Positions 317-62,000 of a stretch of 64,000 nt of DNA are shown here, in pieces. Where the stretch lies: NCBI RefSeq assembly GCF_910596095.1, contig NC_056544.1, positions 7,766,655 to 7,830,654 of the forward strand, in the 5' to 3' direction. Positions within the stretch are counted from its first letter, which is position 1; every line of letters begins with the position of its first letter. The notes below the pieces were generated by a model, which worked only from the letters and a program-made list of their open reading frames with translations, was not told the origin of the DNA and did not search any database. Source of the DNA: Thunnus maccoyii. Its lineage: Eukaryota; Chordata; Actinopteri; Scombriformes; Scombridae. The translations under genes and the position numbers were made by a program.

Positions 317-3300
317 AGTTCCCCCTGTCATCACTAGCACTTCTGGTCCCACCACTAAGACTGATGTCAGCAGTGATGTGGGAAGTGGTGCGCCAGAGGA
401 ACATAAAGCACTATGGGAAACTGGAGGAGTTTGTGTCCATGGTAACAGATGCAGTTCCTGAGCTGATGAGTAAAAGAGAGGGGAGACTGCTCTCGTTGGG
501 CCTGAGAGCGAGGGTAAGTGATCAGAAATGTTGGAAGAAGAAATAATTAATCCTGAGGGAAATGAAAGTGTTACAACAGCACCGTCCAGCACACATCACA
601 CACAACAATAGAATAAAATAGAATAGTTAAATAATAAAATAGAAAACGTTATTATACATTGTGCAATAATTATATGTGGTCTATTGCAAAATAGTTTGTC
701 ATCCATTTTGAAATGATTATACAATGAAATATGATTAAATAAATAAAATTATTATTATTATACATTGTGCAGAACAATAATAATTATATAGTGCCATTCT
801 TAACCAGTTATGAGTTATTTGTGAGAAGGGGGGGAATCATAGGGTGGAAAGCATCAGTATAATCCCATGTTGCAGCAGAGAGGGGAGTAGTTTAGGATGG
901 CTGTGTGTATATAAAGAGTTGTTCAAATAATAAAACCCAAAGAGTCAACACTGTAAAGGACAATATGCAAATATTGTGATTAAAAATCTGAATTATGTTT
1001 CCTCTAGACCACTCTTGAACTGTTGCGCTCTGAGCACCCTGAAGATCTGAAGGCTGTTGAGAGTCACCTTAACAGAATCCGCTCATCTTGCATAGAGGAG
1101 GTGATTGATACTGTCGGCTTGTTTTTATGGATCACTTATTAATATTGTGTTGCATTAAACTCATCTTACTGTCATGTCTTGTTTTGCAATCTAGACAAAT
1201 GATCCTGTAATTGAAGCACCGGAAGCAAACTTTATGAAGCTGGTACAAGGCCTCATTGAAGACACTGATGGCAGAGAACATTTTCTCAAGGTAAAATGAT
1301 TATAAAACTGCATCCAGATAAAACGGTAAATAATATGAACTGCTAAAGAGTTCTGCTGTTTAGGGCTGCAACTCAAAATAAATTTCATTATGGATTAATC
1401 TGACAGAAATTAGTGGAAAAATGCCCATTACAAGTTCCCAAGCTGATGTCTAAAGATACAGTATTTGTTTTGTCTGACCAACAATCCAAAGCACAAAGAT
1501 ATCAAATTTACAATTATATAACAAAGAGAAAAGAAGTGTAGCATTTGTGTACCTGGAACTAGAGAATCTATTTGAATTTTTGCTTGATAAATTACTTAAA
1601 AGAAAAATCAGTTATCAGATTTGTCTAATCTATTAAGCACTAGCTAACAGTTGTTACGACACTAATCTCTTGCATTATCAGTATTTTACATATCAGTACG
1701 TAGAAGTTGTAGACTCATGTAAATTTGGTCTGATCATGAAGGTGAATGTCATGATCTAAATGTTAGTTTTTATATATTTATGTATTTTGATCTGACAGAA
1801 TGTGTTTCCGGTGGAGTATGGTCCTGACTTCGACACGGCACTGGAGACTCTGGTTTGTGAATTCTTCACCAGGCTGGAGGAGCTGCTGCCAATACCAGAT
1901 TTCAAGCAGGTACAGACAAGATGAGCTGAAAGATGAGAGAATAAAGTTGATGAATTACTTAGCACTTAAAAAATGTCTCTCTGTTTTTTGTGGCTCTCTG
2001 TTATAGACTGCATCCTGGATCAGTGCTGCCCCCTCTGTCCTAGAGGAGTACATGCAGTGTGTCTCGAATGGAGAAGACCTCAAATTTCTTCTCCAGAGCA
2101 AACAGTGCCATGGAAAATTGGCAAAGAATACTGTTGGTGTGTGCAAAATCTACTATAAACTAGTCAACATGAAGTATATTTGTTGAAGTGAGAGACTTGT
2201 TATATTGATCATTTTCTCCTCATATTTTCCACACAGCTCCTTTTCAGTCGGATGATCTTCTCATTCCCTCTCTGTCTCTTCCCCCGTCGCTGGAAGTGGC
2301 CATCGCTTCCCATCCTAGTGCTTGTGATGATGAAAACAACGACGTTCCTCAGATAGTCATGTTTGACGAAGAGCTGTCTACAAACCCTTCCACCTCGACC
2401 GACTTTCCTGAATCGCCGAAAAGGACTGACATCTCCTCGTCTCCCCGTCGGAGACAGCAGCCAGGAATGCATAAATGCTCTGAGTGCGACAAATGCTTCA
2501 AGCATCACTCAGTCCTCATCGAACACCAGAGAGTCCACAGCGGGCTGCAGCCTTACAACTGCTCTGAGTGTGGGAGAGCTTTCAGAACAGCCACGCTGCT
2601 GGCCGGTCACAGGCTACGGAAGTGCAAAAATGCTGCGTACCTTTGTATTAAATGCGGGAACAGTTTTCCAACTTCACTGGACAAATTCAGACACCACTGC
2701 CCGAAACGGGGCCGTAACTACGATTGCGGGCACTGCGGAAAGAGTTTCCAAAAGTCCAGCAGCCTAAAGGAACACCTGCTGACTCACGTTCAAAGCCGCC
2801 TTTTCAAGTGCAGCCATTGTGGGGTAGGCTTTTCAGGAATAGGTGACCTGAAGTATCATCAGCAGGTGGATCATGATAAGCCCTATCAGTGTAAGCAATG
2901 TGGAAAGAGCTTTATCTCCTCCAAGTGTCTGACCAAACATCAGCAACGGCATGAAGAGGTCGGCGAAATGGAGACCACCGCCAAATTAATGAGTGGAGGT
3001 AAACACAGGAAAAGTGGCTCAGCTCATCGGACTTCCTCAACATCTATGTCCTCGAGGAAAATGGCCGTCAAAGCGGTCTACCCACGAGGACGAGTCACTC
3101 ACAACTGTCCGCTGTGTGGAAGGAGCTTTAAGTATCGTTTTGAATTCCTGGAACACCAGAGGTTCCACACCGCCGTGAAGCCTTACAAATGCTCGCAGTG
3201 TGGCAAAGCCTTCCGCACAGAGGCTCACTTGTCCGGACACAGGAAGAGGAAGTGCAAAAACGCCGCCCACATTTGCACCAAGTGTGGATGTCAGTTCAGG

Positions 3301-4116
3301 TCTCTACATGAACGTGTCAGACACCAGTGTGTGCAGCTGCTGACAAAATACGAGTGCTCTCATTGCGGGAAGACCTTCAAGATGGCCCACCTGCTGAGGA
3401 ACCATCAGATGACCGAGCACCAGCTTCCATACAGCCCCAACCATCGTTTCAGGTGCAGGTATTGTGATGAGACGTTCCCCGGGATCAGCGAGCTCAAGTA
3501 CCATCAGAGAGTTGACCATGAGAAACCCTACCAGTGCCAAGAATGTGGCAAGTGTTTCCTGTCTGAGAAATGCCTCTCCAACCACGAGCTGCGTCACAAC
3601 GACGACAGGCCAGAAAGCTGCCTCGTCTGCGGTCGCGGCTTCAGAAACCGCTACGACTTGAAGCAGCACATGCGCACTCACACAGGAGAACGACCGTACC
3701 AGTGCACTCACTGCTCACAGTGTTTTTCCACAGCGGGAGGACTGAGGAGTCACACCAGGGTTCACACTGGCGAGAAGCCGCACGTCTGCCCGGATTGTGG
3801 GAAGGCCTTCTCCCAGATGGGTGCAATGCGCACCCACAGGCTCACCCACACAGGAGAGAGGCCGTTCAAGTGCACAGTGTGCGGCAAAGGTTTCACAATG
3901 GCGCATAAGGTAACCGTGCACATGCGCGTGCACACTGGAGAGCGGCCGTACGTGTGCTCTCAGTGCGGGAAAGCATTCTCAGATGGCAGCGTGCTAAAGC
4001 AGCACATGCTGAACCACTCAGGGGTGAGACCGTACCACTGCCAGATCTGTCCCAAGACCTACACCTGTCTGAACCACCTGAGGAGGCACCTGAAAAGTCA
4101 CTCTAACATGAACTGA
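317..4116 (+). CDS. TIN2-like N-terminal domain / 18 zinc-finger protein
   Basis: This is a predicted nuclear DNA-binding protein. The exons are about 317-513, 1008-1100, 1195-1290, 1799-1909, 2007-2136 and 2237-4116 (stop tga). All junctions are GT-AG and the frame stays open. From the ATG at 364 the product is 819 aa, but the frame is open upstream to the acceptor at 311-316, so the N terminus may be longer. Exons 1-5 encode about 200 residues resembling the TRFH-like N-terminal domain of TIN2 (TINF2): W-x-V-V-R-x-R near the start, then a GLRAR-like segment followed by LELL, and later EYG and LEELLPIPDF. The last exon encodes 18 C-x2-C fingers. Fingers 13-18 have canonical TGE(R/K)P-type linkers, and fingers 2, 3, 8 and 9 end in Cys instead of the last His. 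The DNA target is unknown. I recall similar fish proteins but know no standard symbol. Confidence 0.82.
2470..3600 (+). repeat. Tandem duplication of a six-finger module
   Basis: Fingers 1-6 (about 2470-2958) and fingers 7-12 (about 3100-3600) match one to one. Both copies have a C2H2 finger, a C2HC finger ending H-R-x-R-K-C-K-N-A-A, a short C2HC finger (RHHC or RHQC), a C2H2 finger, a finger ending YHQ(Q/R)VDH followed by (D/E)KPYQC, and a C2H2 finger. They are separated by a basic Ser-rich spacer at about 2959-3099. The duplication is inside a single exon. Confidence 0.85.
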
Positions 4117-7451: not shown

Positions 7452-33224
<25,773 letters not shown>

Positions 33225-50700: not shown

Positions 50701-53700
50701 CTGAAACATATAGTGGATGTGAAAGTATAGCTATGGTATTGTTTGTTTCTTCCTGCAGGAATGTGATGTCATGAACTACATCAGGGAAACATGTGGCTGC
50801 TGTGGTGAGTTACTGTTGTGTTGCCATCCATGATCCAAACAGGCTCCAATGGGCTGTCAGATCCTCACAGTCTGTGTTTTTGTCTGTAGACTGTGAGAAA
50901 CGGTGCGGAGCCCTGGACATTGTGTTTGTGATTGACAGCTCAGAGTCAGTGGGTCTGACCAACTTCACGCTGGAGAAGAACTTTGTCATCAATACCATCA
51001 ACAGACTGGGATCCCTTGCCAAAGACCCCCAGTCAGAGACAGGTACACAAGCATTTTTGTGTACCTTACATGATTTCAGATTTAGTCTGAGCAATGTCAA
51101 AAAAAGTCACAAAATGGCTATCAACATCAGCATGTGTTGGTTGTGTTCCCAGGCACAAGGGTGGGAGTTGTTCAGTACAGTCACAGTGGAACCTTCCAGG
51201 CCATCCAGCTCAACGACCCCAAGATTGATTCACTGTCTGCTTTCAAGGTCTCACACACACACACACACAGACATGAACACATATGCAAACTGCTTTGAAG
51301 TTTATTTTTAGGGTGTAGCACAAAATGTTTTTTTGTCCAGATGTTTCTTAATCAATCAGGGCTGATGTGCTGGTAAACATTTCACATGGTTGCACTTGGC
51401 GATATGTTCTTTGTTAAGATGAAATTTACATTGTAGCTTATTTTGGCACTGGACGCATACTCTGTCCTGCTGCTGTTAATACTCACTAAGCACAAAATGT
51501 GTTAATCCGTCACTGAAAATAGTCTCAAAAAAATGCACTATTTACTCCTGTTTGAGTAACGCTTGCTAAAAACTACAGTGCCCAGCTGACTTAAGTTAAC
51601 TTTTTACAGTAGTTCAAATCTCTATTAGTTAAATTTAGTAACTTACATCGTTGTAATTAGCATAATTACTTTGAGAAGACGTCTCCATGTTGACCACACT
51701 CACAATATGTGATGGCCATTTTGAACACTCCAATGGGAAACCTGAAGGAGCCCAACTGCACTAATGCTAATATACTAATCATGCTATCTTGCTGGACATA
51801 GTATACAAAGATTTATGTTTTAATAGATTCCCTTTAAAAAAAAATCATTTATGAGTTAAAGGTTTTATTTATACAGTGTATGGTAGACAGTATATGGTAA
51901 TTTTACCTCTGCAGTGTCCCCTATCACGACTGCAGTCTTTTTTCACACAACCATCCCAAGTGTTCAAAATGGCCACTGTGTGACTTAAATTATATAAACT
52001 ACGAACACCCGTGTTGAAATGATAGAATCGCCTTTCTCTGCTCCCACGTTCAGTACTCACATCACATCATGTACCACAGTGCATACACATCAATCACATG
52101 CCATCTCCTGCATTATTCAGGACGCAGTGAAGCGCTTGGAGTGGATTGCTGGAGGAACGTGGACTCCATCTGCTCTGAAGTTCGCCTACGACAATCTGAT
52201 CAGGGACAGCCGCAGAGCCAAAGCCAACGTCACTGTGGTGGTCATTACTGACGGACGCTTCGACCCCAGAGATGATGACACGCTGCTCACCTACCTCTGC
52301 AGGTGCCGACACTGGGGCTGCTCAGATATTTAGAATGAGCATTTATGTAAAAGAAAAGTTTTAGCTTATTGTTTATTTGTGTGCACTTATGTATGTGAGC
52401 AGTGCTCCCAATGTTGATGTGAGTGCCATCGGTATTGGAGACATGTTTGACCAGATTGAGGAGAATGAGAGTCTGAAGAGTATTGCCTGCCAGAAGGACG
52501 GCAGGGTGTTGGGCATGAGGCGCTTTGCAGACCTGGTGGCCGAGGAGTTCATCGACAAGATTGAGACCGTGCTCTGCCCAGGTACGCTCACACACATTAT
52601 ATACAGTATGTTCACATAGCAGCAAATGAATACCTGTTTTGGTCTTTGCCCCTGGTCTCTGACATTCTCCTTCTTTGCTTCAGATCCCATTATTGTGTGC
52701 CCTGACCTTCCTTGTAAAACAGGTAAGTGTTCAAAACCTTTTTTATCATAAAAGTTTAACTCTCCCTTTTTGTTCTCTTCCAAATTTTTTAAGTTTCAGC
52801 ATTTAGGCCTGAGTAACCAGCATTATTAAGGCGTCAATATGCTTTAAACAAAGTGCTTGTCAAATCATCAAACTGTGTCTGAAACCCCCTATCACGACAT
52901 CTTTTTTGGCAGGTTCATTCCACAATTTTTCTTAACTTTCTGAAACCCACAATCTAACACCCCCACTTCACGCAGCAACTTGCCAGGTGTGCGGTGATGG
53001 GAAAGTAGGATTTGAACTTCTCACTCAGGCTCTCTTTTTTCTTTTTTCATACTTCACTCGACATTTGCACAACCACATGCAACAACAAGAGCAAAGACTG
53101 TCCAAAAGTATGCAACATTGTCCCCAGTTTGTACGATTCATCACTTCTTGCTCCTCCTTCTAACAACACTTTTGCCTTTGACGACACCTTGTACAAACTA
53201 GTTTGTTTGAAGCATACTGACGCCTTCAAGCTATGTCAAGGATTAGATGCGTTGTGGATCAAGCTGAAGTTGAATTATGTCTGTTTTTAACACAGTTGTA
53301 TAGTAACACCTCCTATGCTATGGTGCGATTAACTCATGTGACAGTAAAACGAATACCTGAGACCAAACATGCCATTTAGCGCAACTCGGTGCACCATCGG
53401 CATCTTAGTTGGCTGTGTTGATGCGTCGTGTTTGTGGGAACCCGCCCACAATGTTATTCCGCCCACTTGTTGCAGGAGGGGGCATCACCTCAGGGCATGG
53501 CCCCAGGGAGCCACTGGCTGAGGAAGGCAACCCCTCATTGGTCCCTACCTCTTTGGAGGGTGTGGCCAACCTGCTGAACAGCCTGAGCGTCAGCGAGCAG
53601 CAGTATGGGGTTGGCGTGGCAACCATGGCGTACACAGCCCAGAGAGCCAAACTCGCCCAGGGAGTGGAGAGGCAGCAGTGGACCCAGCTGTTCATCGACT

Positions 53701-56229
53701 CCTTCAAACATGTCTATGGAGAAATTATTGGGGACCCAGAGAAAGCCCTAGGACTTTGCTAATGCTAATATGCTAACCATGCTACCTCGCCATTAGAGTT
53801 TTTATGGATGCCAATATCTAATGAGCTTACTGCTGGACATAGAATAGATTTTATCAATACTGTGGGCATTTTTTTTTTGAGGGTGCAATACATACCTGGG
53901 CTGATGCAAAAGAATTGCATGATATGAAGCTGGTCCTGTCATAAATTTTTTGTATAGTTACTGTATGTGATGGGCCAAAAGTCAAAACGAGGATTCACGA
54001 TGCTCTCTCTACTCATTGATTATTTCTGAAATAACATACACGGCGCTGTCTCTCAAAAAATCTTTTTTTGTAATATGATACATATCATTTCTTCCACCTT
54101 AGTGGAGAACATTTTCCAATCGCACGGAAAGCAGACGTCATCCATTTGTTGGATGCAGGTTCATCTGTAGAGCCATTCATGCTGCTCCTGTGTACAGTGG
54201 CTCTTTGATGAAGCCTCATTTCCACTGTGAATCACGGGCTTGCTGAATCACTCTGATGACTTTTTTTCTTCTTTTTTTTTTTGCTGTTTTGCACATATCC
54301 ATGGTTACGGCCTTTACTTTTTTTTCCTGTGCTCTGTGAATGACTCATGTTGATGAAAAGGCCATTACATGTGGAAAATATCTAGTTTTCTATATATGTC
54401 ACATTATACTGTATATGAGTTAGAAGATAGTGTATGTGGATGTTTGGTTAATTGACTTGACACTGAGAAGAAGGAACTATTATGTTATAGTCATGTAATT
54501 TAAAATAGGGAGCTTTATAGTGCCAATAATGGCCTTGATTGGTGCATGTTTTTTTGCATGTGGCTTGGCTTGTAAAATAGGATGACCAGAGGAAAATGAC
54601 TACAGAGCGGCTTTAACCAAATAAAATGGTATCATGTTAGCTCTGTGACTGCAACTTGCTGATGTGAACTGTTTTTTGTATAAAACTGAAATATATTCAA
54701 TGTTTTTATGTTGTCCTCTGAAGAACTAAATAAAATGGTAGCGCAAACTAAAACAGTGCTTTCCTGATGAGGCCATGACTGATCCGCAAAGGTTTAGATG
54801 AAATCAGACAGCTGGACTGCATCTGGCATGTATGGAAGCACAGCTTGTTACAGTATATGATGTGCTGGCTTTGACCTCTGAGCATCTGTATTCAAGCTGA
54901 AACTCACTGAATATCATGTCTGATCTAAGACTTTATATGTGTGTTTTAGAGCCTGCTGTGGCCAGCTGTGTTCAGCGGCCAGTGGATCTCGTCTTCCTAT
55001 TGGATGGTTCTGAGAGGATGGGACTGGACAACCACCGTCGGGCCAAAGAGTTCATAGAGAACTTGGCTCGCCGCCTCACTCTGGCCAATGACCAGTCAGA
55101 CGACAGGAATGCTCGCTTGGCTTTGCTCCAATACGGCAGCTCATCAGAACAGAGGTTGGAGTTCCCGCTCACACACAATCTGACGGTGATCTCTGATTCG
55201 CTGGCAGCAGTGAGGTACATGGACTCCTCCTCTGCTCTGGGCAGCGCTATCATCCATGCTGTCAACAATCTGGTTTTTCAACCAGGTTCACAGGTATAAA
55301 CAAACACACAAAGACACACACACACAAATACACACATAACACAAAACATTTACTTTTGGACAACCTGCATAGGTTGACATTTTTGAAAATTTGCTCTCTT
55401 GCCATGTGTAGGATGAGATGATGCATAAAACTCTCATGTCTGTACAATAAATATGAAGTGACAACCAGCAGCCAGTAAGCACAGCTAGCATGAAGACTGG
55501 AAATAAGTTGTAGTTTGTTTAATCCGTACATAAAACAAAGTATAAACATGACAAGTTGCTGTTTTTTATAGGCTATCTCTTCTTTGATTCTCTGCTGGTT
55601 GCCAGGCAACCTCACGGTGACGACAAGACTCCAGGAAGTCACTGCTCCTAGCCGCATGGCACATAACCTCCCTTAAAACCACCATGTATTGTTTTTACAC
55701 TTTTACACGTTTTTCAGACAGATTAAACAAACAAGATATAACGTGTTAATTAGTGAGCTTTAAAATTGCTGGTAGGCAGTTATTTTAACCTTTGGACAGA
55801 GCCTGGCTAACAGTCATCCCCTGCTTACAGTCTTTATGCTAAGCTAAGCTAATCACCTTCTGGCTCCAGTGTAATGCACAGACACAAGTGTGGTGTCAAT
55901 CATCTCATCTAATGCTCTCAAAATGTGAAACAATTCCTTTAACATTATATGTGCGTTTGTTGCAGTCACGCTTGGCTCGTCGCAACGCTGAGCTGGCCTT
56001 TGTTTTCATCACTGATGGCATCACATCCATGGAGCAGCTGGATGAGGGCGTGTCTGCCATGAGGCGAGCAGAGGGCATTCCCACAGTGATTTCCATGGGA
56101 ACTGACACCGATGAGGAGGTGCTGCAGAAGGTGTCGCTAGGGGACATGTCTGCCATCTTTAGAGGAGATGACTACAACATGCTGAACAATCCCGCATTCT
56201 TTGAGCGCTTTGTCCGCTGGATATGCTAG
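44051..56229 (+). CDS. col6a2: Collagen alpha-2(VI) chain, long isoform
   Basis: This is the alpha2 chain of collagen VI. The start at 44051 opens a signal peptide ([19 protein letters not shown]). I could place 31 coding exons, all with GT-AG junctions, summing to 3042 nt and a 1013-aa product; human is about 1019 aa. The order is VWA N1, linker, 335-residue triple helix, VWA C1 and VWA C2. Family-diagnostic segments include [56 protein letters not shown] and FVRWIC at the end. The C2 MIDAS position reads DGSER, as I recall for the human chain, so it is probably not metal-binding. C2 is split by an intron (55294-55965) that is mostly a fold-back repeat. An alternative terminal exon lies at 53476-53762. 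Confidence 0.97.
45310..45475 (+). mobile_element. tRNA-derived SINE fragment
   Basis: A tRNA-like head has an A-box resembling tggctgagtggtt (about 45332) and a degenerate B-box gatttgattct (about 45377). A pyrimidine-rich body follows and ends ctgtcaataaaggtaaaata. It is too degenerate to be a tRNA gene. Confidence 0.6.
45560..46085. repeat. Fold-back MITE-like element in a col6a2 intron
   Basis: This copy of the 22370 family has both halves. It carries gattagcttagcataaagac at about 45673 and the inverted gctaagctaagctaatcagc at about 46021. The ends match as reverse complements with many mismatches. Confidence 0.7.
46840..47110. repeat. Dispersed fish repeat in a col6a2 intron
   Basis: Recognisable segments are ctgcagttcctcgaatggcc, ccatagactctcatgttaaa and tttacagcagaaataaacat. 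This is a very common percomorph non-coding repeat. Confidence 0.65.
47110..47640 (-). mobile_element. LINE 3' fragment, L1-like
   Basis: Read on the minus strand, a 141-residue open frame (47099-47524) carries a C-terminal LINE signature: [20 protein letters not shown], a Cys-Cys-His-Cys segment like the one in the LINE at 16063. No reverse transcriptase core remains. Its orientation is opposite to col6a2. Confidence 0.7.
53476..53762 (+). CDS. col6a2: Alternative terminal exon of col6a2 (2C2a-like isoform)
   Basis: A strong acceptor (cccacttgttgcag, ending 53475) opens this exon. Exon 52684-52722 ends in phase 1, and joining it to 53476 keeps the frame to a stop at 53760-53762. This replaces the whole C2 domain with 95 residues and gives a 906-aa product. 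The last part ([34 protein letters not shown]) closely resembles what I recall as the end of the human COL6A2 2C2a isoform (918 aa). Its role in mammals is not well understood; without C2 the chain may assemble differently. Confidence 0.85.
53763..54760 (+). other. col6a2: 3' UTR of the alternative col6a2 transcript
   Basis: The sequence is AT-rich and non-coding. AATAAA signals at 54620-54625 and 54729-54734 lie before the C2 exon acceptor at 54949, so a short transcript could end here. The upstream stretch 52723-53475 is intron with no recognised element. Confidence 0.55.
55360..55950. repeat. Fold-back MITE-like element filling the last col6a2 intron
   Basis: The left end (acatttttgaaaatttgctc) and right end (tctcaaaatgtgaaacaatt) are imperfect reverse complements. 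Inner motifs gctagcatgaagactggaaa (about 55483) and tctttatgctaagctaagct (about 55831) are mirrored. The element takes up nearly 90% of the 672-bp intron 55294-55965. Confidence 0.75.

Positions 56230-58539: not shown

Positions 58540-58584
<45 letters not shown>
58540..58584. repeat. (GT)n tract before the dehydratase start exon
   Basis: GT repeats end only 7 bp before the acceptor tactccag (ending 58591). Confidence 0.9.
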
Positions 58585-58587
<3 letters not shown>

Positions 58588-58601
58588 CCAGTGCTGCCAG
58601 T

Positions 58602-61600
58602 ATGGAGGGGGAGCCCATCTCCACGCTGTTTACTCCTGCTCTAGTGGTGGATGTGGACAAAGTGAAGAGAAATGCCCAGAGGATGATTGAACGTTGTAAG
58701 AAGCTGGGAGTCCAGCTTCGCCCTCACATGAAGACCCACAAAACCCTGTATGAATGCACACATACACACTACATTCATACAGGTCAGTCATATATAAGGG
58801 ATACTGATGAGGTCTGTGTGTTTCTGTTCATGTGTAGTGAGTGTGCTGACATACTGACGGGTGGATCACGGAGGTGCATCGTGGTTTCCACGCTGGCAGA
58901 GGCCAGTTTCTATGCCGACCACGGATTTGATGACATCCTCTATGCTTATTGTCTTCCCTTTGATAAGGTTCTCTCAATTCACACTACAGCTCCCAGTTGC
59001 CAGTTACCACACACTCATTCTGTCCAGGTTTTGATTATGTAGTGCTGTCACACTGGAAAAGTAACTAAATTAAATATACTCCAAAAAAAGTCAGCATGCA
59101 TCCTAAAATACCCTTGTTGAGTGTGCAAGGAATTGCTGGAGAGAAATGGAGGAGCTGCTCACAGCTTCATAACAACAAACAAAAAAATAAATAATAAATA
59201 ACATTTTTCTTTCCCTTTGAGAAGTGTAATTGACATCATTTTCAGTTAGTACAAAAGGGTTACATTGATTTTGAACTAACCGCAAATAGAGTACTGTATG
59301 GAATAGGGGACACAACTTTTCACATTAGCAGACATTAGTTGTTATAGCAGGAAAAACACAGGTGGAACTAATACATTTAACAAAGTAGTGACAGCTCTGT
59401 TGTATGTGAGTGTACAGATAAGCCATGACAGTGGGCCAGCAAGTACAATAGCATGACCCTCCAACTGGCACACCTCAGACTGCAGCTTCGTTGATGGTAT
59501 TAATTACACCTGTGCTTTTCCTGCTGTGACATGTAAAAATATCTACCATGAAAACGGATTCACTCACTGTACTAAAAACCAAGACCTGAGTGGGATACTG
59601 TTTCTCAGTGAAAACATAACTAAAGGATGATACTGAGTTACTCAATTCTGGTGTCAAATTTTAACTAATTATAATCTCTTACAAACTGAGATCTGACATA
59701 GACATCTGTATTGCTTACTTTTCTTCAACAACCGCTGAAAAGTTTTCAGTTTACTATGAGATGAAAGGGAGAAAAGCGAGCAACTAAACACATTTAAAAA
59801 CCTGCTACCAGCAAATGTTTGTTATTTTACTTTCATTTTTACTTTTTCCAAATGACTGAAACCATTAACTTGTTATCAGCCCTAGTAGCCTACTGAATGT
59901 ATGGAACGTAACCACAACGTCCCCAGTTCAATTCCAGCAGTGGATCTTTGTTGTCTCCCCACAATGAAACAATGAATTGACTTATTGTTCCAGCAAAACT
60001 GAATCACTACATGTAGCTATTATTAACACTGATTTGACGTACTTCTTATTTCTCATAATTTTTGTATTCCTTTGCGTTATTTCCCCTCTGTACATCAAAC
60101 ACAAATCACATTAACTTTGTGCGTGTGTGTGTAGGTGGAGCGTTGTGCAGCCCTGTCAGAGCGGCTTGATCTCTTCCAAGTTTTATTGGATCATCCTGAT
60201 GCTCTGGAGCAGCTCAAAAAGAGACCACTGAGAGACGGTCGGCTGTGGCATGTTTGGCTGAAACTCGACTGCATGAACGGGAGAGGTAAACAGGCAGGGA
60301 AACCAGGAAACAGCTGATCAGCTGTTGAGATAAAATGCCTGCTGATCGTGCATTTGCTCTTTGCTGTAGCTGGTGTCCTGCACTCAGAACCCGAGGCGCT
60401 CAGATTGGCACAGGCCATTGCTGAGACGGCAGGCGTGGAGCTGACAGGAGTGTACGCTCACTGTGGGAACACCTATAACTGCAGAGGAGTAGAGCAAATA
60501 CATGCCGTTGCCCAGGAAACCACCAATTTTACTCTGCAGTTCATGGAAAAGTAAGAAAAATGTGACTCCATGTATCCCACCTCACTTTTATATTAAGAAA
60601 AGTGCATTTATGAAGAATTAATTCCCGACCGGCAAGCACCAGAGGAAGGACAACTGTTTTTTCCTCCTGACAATACAATGTCTTTGCCACACAAAATTCT
60701 AGTTGTTAATCCGCCATGATTGTAGGAGAAAAGTTAGCTGTATTATTGTATAATCACATTATTAGGAGGTTACTTGCAGCAACAGATGGTAACAAGTAAA
60801 TTACCTTTATATTTATGAAACTTAATATTGATAGAATCATTCATTTAACATCTCTGGGTGTGTTTTCTGGCAGATTGAAGGCTGTTGGCATCACCTGTAA
60901 GTCCAGCATCGGCTCCACTCCGTCCTGTAGTCACCCCATCAAAGACATGGCGCTGCTCAGCGAGGTGCATCCGGGAAACTACGTCTTCTACGGTGCGTGG
61001 ATGTAAATGTGGTCGCACCGGTGTCTGGTCTTAGATTCCTGCAGAGTCACATGACACCAATGATAATGTTTTTTTATGTACTTTTTGGTTGCTTCTAGAT
61101 GTGCAGCAGTCTGTGATTGGCTCATGCAGTCTGGAGGAGGTGGCTGTGCGGGTTTTGACAAGAGTCATTGGGCACTGTCCTCACAGGAACCAGCTCCTGA
61201 TTGACTGTGGATGGTCTGGATTAAGGTACGACCTTCGTCAGTTATATTTACCCACTTTTGTATTTGCACAGTGGACTTTTCTAGTTATCATCTCTAGTTC
61301 ATATATGTAATTCATGTAGATCTATAGCATAAGGGTAAGGATTTATAATGCCCACCAATTAGAACAGAGACATTACCCACTTTTTTACTCACTACTACAT
61401 TACTGACCTTTACACCTTTATTTATTTAACATTTGATTTAAACTTGGCACTGACATAACCTTTCACCTGTTGTTGCTCACATCTCTCAGTTTGGACGGAG
61501 GTGGAAAACTTCCCACTGGATATGCTGTGATCGAAGGACACCCAAACCTCAAGTAATGAAACGTTATCTTGTCTCATTTCTCAATATCAAACTTTAGTGT

Positions 61601-61939
61601 AACTGATGTTCTGATGTGAGATGTTTTTCCTCCAGGTTGTTGTCCATGACCCAGGAGCACGGGAGAGTGGAGCCCATCTCAGGACCGCTGGATTACAGCA
61701 AATACCCTCTGGGCTCTCTGCTCACACTGATCCCATACCATGTTAGTACTGTTCAATGTGGAGTTAAGCTTTTTCGTCAGTTTTATCGTGTCAATTTTCC
61801 TCTTATCTCGCTCTCTCTATATCTCTCTCTCTGTGTTGTTGTTCTGCAGTCGTGTGCAACAGCGATGATGCATCCTGTGTATCATGTGCACTCTGAGGGA
61901 AGTCTGCTGGGGAAGTGGACGCCAACACGTGGGTGGTGA
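58602..61939 (+). CDS. D-serine dehydratase-like protein (DSD1 type)
   Basis: This is a predicted PLP- and zinc-dependent eliminase that converts D-serine to pyruvate and ammonia (alanine racemase-like fold III family). Nine coding exons are 58602-58747, 58838-58967, 60135-60285, 60370-60550, 60874-60992, 61099-61225, 61490-61552, 61636-61741 and 61850-61939. The frame closes exactly at 1113 nt and 370 aa; the chicken enzyme is about 376 aa. The likely PLP lysine is K44 in RPHMKTHK. The likely zinc ligands H341 and C343 (PYHSC) are kept and are split by the last intron. VYAHCGNTY and CGWSGLSLDGGG also fit the family. The first ATG with good context was chosen. A related aldolase/dehydratase activity on other D-hydroxy amino acids cannot be excluded. 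Confidence 0.88.
59880..59975 (+). mobile_element. tRNA-derived SINE fragment
   Basis: It has tagtagcctactgaatgtat followed by a B-box-like ccagttcaattccagc at about 59922. It lies in the dehydratase intron 58968-60134, which otherwise shows nothing. Confidence 0.5.
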
Positions 61940-62000
61940 ACTGCTGCTCAACTGATCACATCACCCTGTTAGGATAGCCAGATGATCACTAAAATAAAGA
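61940..62000 (+). other. Dehydratase 3' UTR and polyadenylation signal
   Basis: AATAAA at 61993-61998 lies only 54 nt after the tga stop, which indicates a short 3' UTR. Confidence 0.6.

Follow-up and report, generated by a model that had tools for sequence, protein, structure and literature searches.

A window of 64,000 nucleotides from the Thunnus maccoyii genome (C12:7766655-7830654 of a source genome of 782 Mb) contains col6a2, the gene for the collagen alpha-2(VI) chain, and raises the question of what this chain carries at its C terminus when its last VWA domain, C2, is replaced. The exon in question (53476-53762, + strand; all positions are those of the window, that is, the whole stretch that was analysed) lies after a 39-bp link exon and before the first exon of C2, and an earlier note, made from the sequence alone, had described it as an alternative terminus replacing C2. 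We find that the exon is coding and joins the link exon in frame; the encoded tail of 95 residues resembles the C-terminal half of the FAM180 domain (PF15173). This likeness, which is absent from the earlier note, is the most informative result on the tail.

The two possible endings of col6a2

We take the window to be the fish col6a1-col6a2 region, col6a1 being named from gene order and from its own collagen and VWA exons. The identity of col6a2 comes from its first C2 exon, for which the best match in the PDB is collagen alpha-2(VI) (9gtu_B, E 9.2e-42; also 9han_B, E 6.5e-40); in addition, all four of the scanned C1 and C2 exon pieces match Pfam VWA. The last exon of domain C1 (52403-52581, + strand, as are all of the col6a2 features that follow) was placed by its frame and splice sites, with two other C1 pieces matching Pfam VWA, and ends in phase 1. 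The link exon (52684-52722) is common to both endings. Its donor can be joined in frame to the first exon of C2 (54950-55293; Pfam VWA, E 6.4e-17), and the last exon of C2 (55966-56229; Pfam VWA, E 5.6e-5) ends RWIC-stop. Alternatively, the same donor can be spliced in phase 1 to the exon at 53476-53762, which gives an in-frame tail that ends EKALGLC and is closed by the stop codon TAA at 53760-53762; the tail has 95 residues including the Gly at the junction, 94 of them wholly within the exon. Both endings of col6a2 finish on a Cys codon.

The splice sites were scored with matrices built from the collagen-helix exons of the window, gathered by their Gly-X-Y frame and splice borders; all 34 detected exons were used for donors and 33 for acceptors, one (26044) being dropped because its AG apparently lies inside coding text. 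The acceptor at 53476 scores 9.34, ranks first among the 117 AGs of the intron and exceeds 23 of the 33 true acceptors, with 79 of the 3,944 AGs in the whole window scoring as high; the acceptor of the C2 exon at 54950 is lower (6.12). The link exon is well defined on both sides: its acceptor (52684) outscores 32 of the 33 true acceptors, and its donor (52722, CAG/GTAAGT) outscores all 34 true donors. Thus, the exon borders, the strong acceptor, the phase match with the link exon and the in-frame stop described in the earlier note are all borne out.

The exon also reads as protein-coding. Its codon log-odds score is +42.1 in the spliced frame, vs −41.9 to +11.1 in the other five frames, and none of 15,924 intron windows reaches that score (maximum −10.4). 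The score was trained on 884 codons, about 330 from three FAM180 exons and the remainder from the VWA exons of the window, including C2 and C1 pieces; because of the FAM180 codons, it cannot count as fully independent of the result on FAM180 described below. We did not use the length of the open frame by itself as evidence (P 0.034 for 94 open codons with the exon's own composition). With its position, splice sites, frame, stop and coding signature, the exon has all of the marks of an alternative terminal exon. We found no second copy of it in the 782-Mb genome.

Downstream of the stop codon, the stretch 53763-54760 would be the 3′ untranslated region of this ending, as placed by the stop and by AATAAA motifs, and contains two candidate polyadenylation signals (54620-54625 and 54729-54734). 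The earlier note had credited the exon with polyadenylation signals of its own; the motifs are indeed present, but two are no more than chance would supply (1.28 expected; P of two or more, 0.37), so we rejected them as independent support.

Two side observations concern this stretch. The second-best acceptor of the intron (54103, score 8.33) falls within the presumed 3′ untranslated region and might serve yet another short ending, comparable to human 2C2a′. Also, a 32-nt direct repeat, 88% identical, occurs at 53759-53790 and, about 2 kb upstream, at 51761-51792; the downstream copy starts with the final base of the Cys codon of the tail, which places the stop codon inside the repeat, and a 26-nt part of it has four matches genome-wide at up to three mismatches, two of which are these copies.

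In humans, a passage of PMC10049728, citing Saitta et al. 1990, gives three known variants of COL6A2, including 2C2a; the role of this terminus, which the earlier note called little studied, needs that qualification, as the isoform is already known and has been studied. A human splice-site variant described in section 2.2 of PMC10059973 is predicted to delete Asp808-Thr820, that is, 13 residues or 39 bp; the human link exon is therefore of the same size as that of the fish, and this supports the exon anatomy. Most likely, the exon at 53476-53762 corresponds in the fish to the human 2C2a ending. We found no vertebrate sequence of the tail exon in the sequence collections, and scans of viral and genome contigs gave no relative. 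A table in PMC10059973 gives Arg835Cys, a variant whose number refers to the 2C2a transcript, as likely benign by the rules of the American College of Medical Genetics (ACMG), with two of three prediction programs calling it deleterious or disease-causing and the third possibly damaging. If there are no length changes between human and fish, Arg835Cys would be tail residue 15, in the linker before the FAM180-like core.

Similarity of the tail to FAM180

The Pfam scan of the tail listed FAM180 with an E-value of 2.8e-4 and 21.3 bits, residues 21-79 aligning with positions 69-133 of the 137-position profile. FAM180 is the sole family listed up to an E-value of 10, with filters that drop most matches above about 0.1; this listing has no VWA match, and an NCBIfam scan of the tail listed no family. 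A profile comparison of the tail with FAM180 by hhalign gave an E-value of 1.4e-4 (for a single comparison) over residues 21-85; these residues (53538-53732) are what we refer to as the FAM180-like core. The earlier note had put the constrained part of the tail from near SLEGVANLL onward, and the FAM180 match does begin just ahead of this motif, at residue 21-23.

The genome itself contains four FAM180 genes whose second exon is open (C5:25733586, C23:17841147, C5:14696049 and C5:15550975; Pfam E-values for the second exons, 7.1e-48, 4.3e-42, 1.1e-19 and 3.4e-19), with the first exon matched for C5:25733586 and C23:17841147 only. The copies of the second type, L006 (C5:14696049), L007 (C5:15550975) and a fragment whose frame is not intact to the end of the domain (L010, C5:16083617), are distributed along 1.4 Mb of a single contig. 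The genome search that was used to collect these genes listed matches down to 15.7 bits, and the tail, with its 21.3 bits by Pfam, was not among them; the search is therefore too insensitive to exclude such a module in other collagens.

A profile built from the four genes gives the tail 15.4 bits, a score that none of 20,000 shuffled tails reaches (best 9.9). Nor is it reached by any of 5,000 class-preserving shuffles, in which the hydrophobic, polar and Gly/Pro classes stay at their places and the periodicity of helices is thereby retained (best 12.4); the reversed tail scores −1.7. When this profile was run over the 790 open reading frames (ORFs) of 40 amino acids or more in the window, the tail-bearing ORF came first with 14.6 bits, the next having 7.5. 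Against 177,635 PDB sequences (default filters), the profile from the four-gene alignment scored 12.3 bits at best, below the 15.4 bits of the tail, and PDB searches with two alignments gave nothing below an E-value of 0.87. The five aligned sequences have invariant columns of Pro, Leu, Val, Tyr, Trp and Gly.

The four genes (L006, L007 and the other two, L004 and L005) do not contribute equally. By itself, L005 gives 11.8 bits, which none of 5,000 free and none of 5,000 class-preserving shuffles reaches, and L004 and L005 together give 14.4 bits, again unreached in 5,000 shuffles of both kinds. L006 alone (2.0 bits) is reached by 60 free and 356 class-preserving shuffles of 5,000, and L007 alone (1.1 bits) by 71 and 487. 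The similarity over the C-terminal half of FAM180 is thus significant with the profile, and not against the L006 and L007 type alone; judged by sequence comparison, the likeness is to the gene type of L004 and L005, and hardly to the other type. We label the L004 and L005 type FAM180A-like, the labels A and B being our own.

Several points weigh against assigning the tail to FAM180. The tail stays under the 27 bits that Pfam has curated as the cut-off of the family, so we term it FAM180-like and not a FAM180 member. The match covers positions 69-133 only, the first half of the 137-position domain being unmatched; the hhalign probability is just 53%; tail-FAM180 identity is 24% at most; and no useful match came from pairwise BLASTP when the tail was compared with three of the FAM180 exons, out of four. 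L004 alone gives only 7.1 bits, reached by one free and two class-preserving shuffles of 5,000, and L006 and L007 together give 1.7 bits, reached by 61 and 403. Finally, the intron is in phase 1 in col6a2 vs phase 0 before exon 2 of the FAM180 gene at C5:25733586; together with the unmatched first half of the domain, this means that a simple transfer of an exon is not seen.

Low score, low hhalign probability, low identity, silent BLASTP and the lack of real support from L006 and L007 are what favor the alternative of a true 2C2a ending whose likeness to FAM180 is a matter of chance or of convergence between short amphipathic helices, the tail being an orphan with its own function. This alternative has to contend with E-values near 1e-4 by two methods (Pfam and hhalign), with a four-gene score that neither the class-preserving shuffles nor the PDB background reaches, and with FAM180 being the only Pfam family found under the filters noted above; we consider it unlikely. 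The statistics instead make common descent of the tail core with FAM180 very probable. A recent FAM180 retrocopy as the origin of the exon was rejected, given the lack of useful pairwise BLASTP matches with the three FAM180 exons compared.

Other candidate relatives were set aside. Tandem RecA fusions in the PDB reached an E-value of 2.5e-5 at best, but each repeat contributes about 3 bits and the significance arises from the sum alone; a fourth PDB match in the same search (E 0.85) and a 32%-identical match on contig C10 of the genome (E 4.41) were taken as chance.

Possible consequences for collagen VI assembly

The splice sites, frame, coding signature and FAM180 similarity were computed here; the contacts of C2 and its dispensability for trimers are taken from print. 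In the sections of PMC12354898 that treat C2, cryo-electron microscopy places the alpha-2 C2 domain in contact with alpha-3 C1 inside the trimer; alpha-1 C2 packs on the alpha-2 C2 of a symmetry mate, and this contact arises only with higher-order assembly into tetramers. The same source reports that constructs truncated after C1 still trimerise and that the coiled coil is required (section 8), and that a disulphide involves Cys1019 of human C2; the words ‘splice’, ‘isoform’ and ‘C2a’ have zero occurrences in the main text of this paper on the microfibril structure (PMC12354898). As C2 has one contact within the trimer and another within the tetramer and is dispensable for trimers, a tail-ended chain should enter trimers but have neither contact.

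We therefore propose the following explanation, which as a whole we hold with moderate confidence. Depending on which terminal exon is joined to donor 52722, the chain would either carry VWA domain C2 or have it replaced by the 95-residue tail, consisting of a linker of about 21 residues and then a diverged module that is probably homologous to the C-terminal half of FAM180. The tail-bearing chain, the probable fish counterpart of 2C2a, would still trimerise via the coiled coil before C1, and would lack the contacts with alpha-3 C1 in the trimer and with the partner's alpha-1 C2 in the tetramer. As a result, it would tune or cap higher-order assembly and display a FAM180-like surface on the microfibril bead. 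The prediction is altered tetramer stability or microfibril length, plus a new surface on the bead. A 2010 paper in the Journal of Biological Chemistry reportedly found C2a chains able to assemble into short microfibrils.

A different reading is that the 2C2a chain can do the work of the C2 chain and build normal microfibrils. The dispensability of C2 domains for trimers speaks for it; the contacts of alpha-2 C2 in trimer and tetramer speak against it (PMC12354898), as do patients. The case descriptions in PMC12564197 include two Gln858Ter homozygotes (exon 28) who are severely affected, one not having acquired walking at 8 and the other having lost it at 15; Gln858Ter should leave 2C2a intact. 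Of two Gln819Ter homozygotes (exon 27, where both endings are hit), one lost walking at 48 and the other at 11 (PMC12564197). On these few cases, the tail seems not to take over the role of C2, and we regard a working substitute as improbable. The severe Gln858Ter cases are also a point against the explanation proposed above. Least probable of all is that the exon is mainly a regulatory trap in which splicing and polyadenylation reduce the C2-bearing chain, with the tail itself of little importance; the alternative acceptor does outscore that of C2 and AATAAA motifs do follow, but their count is at chance level, and a strong coding signature with protein-level likeness to FAM180 is unexpected in a mere trap.

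More tentatively, collagen VI may carry, by alternative splicing, a tethered relative of FAM180; the 2C2a chain and FAM180 might then share a binding partner in connective tissue, and the splice switch might exchange C2, the lock of the tetramer, for an interaction of FAM180 type on the microfibril bead. We consider this somewhat less likely than not. With a FAM180-like tail, a known yet puzzling form of collagen VI gains a testable new meaning, and FAM180, a small and poorly understood family, would be tied to a defined matrix assembly. Mutations in collagen VI cause muscular dystrophies; knowing the domain would provide a concrete handle on the possible role of the other ending.

Neighboring features and comparison with known systems

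Three other features of the window lie on the + strand. An open frame of 635 codons (2209-4116) reads as what we take to be a multi-C2H2 zinc-finger protein; ORF pieces in the col6a1 region (15965-18433) presumably belong to a non-LTR (long terminal repeat) retrotransposon; and exon-like ORFs downstream of col6a2 (about 58560-61940) resemble what we assume is an enzyme of the D-serine dehydratase / D-threonine aldolase type.

The 2C2a isoform is known; the assignment of a FAM180 domain to it was not found in print. In the literature searched, which leaves most subscription papers outside its coverage, we found no statement linking the COL6A2 tail to FAM180 and no occurrence of ‘PF15173’, ‘FAM180 family’, ‘FAM180 domain’ or ‘FAM180-like’; the passages on FAM180A give expression data only, in cartilage and growth plate.

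Three known systems serve for comparison. With FAM180, above all the genes at C5:25733364-25733903 and C23:17841147-17841964, the tail shares the alignment of residues 21-85 to the C-terminal half of the domain and the common Pro, Leu, Val, Tyr, Trp and Gly; unlike FAM180, it falls below the Pfam cut-off, has no match to the N-terminal half, is attached to a collagen, carries an extra C-terminal stretch (DPEKALGLC) and has an intron phase that differs from that of the one FAM180 gene inspected for it. With VWA domain C2 of alpha-2(VI) (PDB 9gtu and 9han), the tail shares its C-terminal place and the closing Cys; unlike C2, it is a different domain. The third is the human alpha-2(VI) variant 2C2a (NM_058174), in which the ending replaces the usual C terminus after a 13-residue link exon, as the exon at 53476-53762 would in the fish gene.
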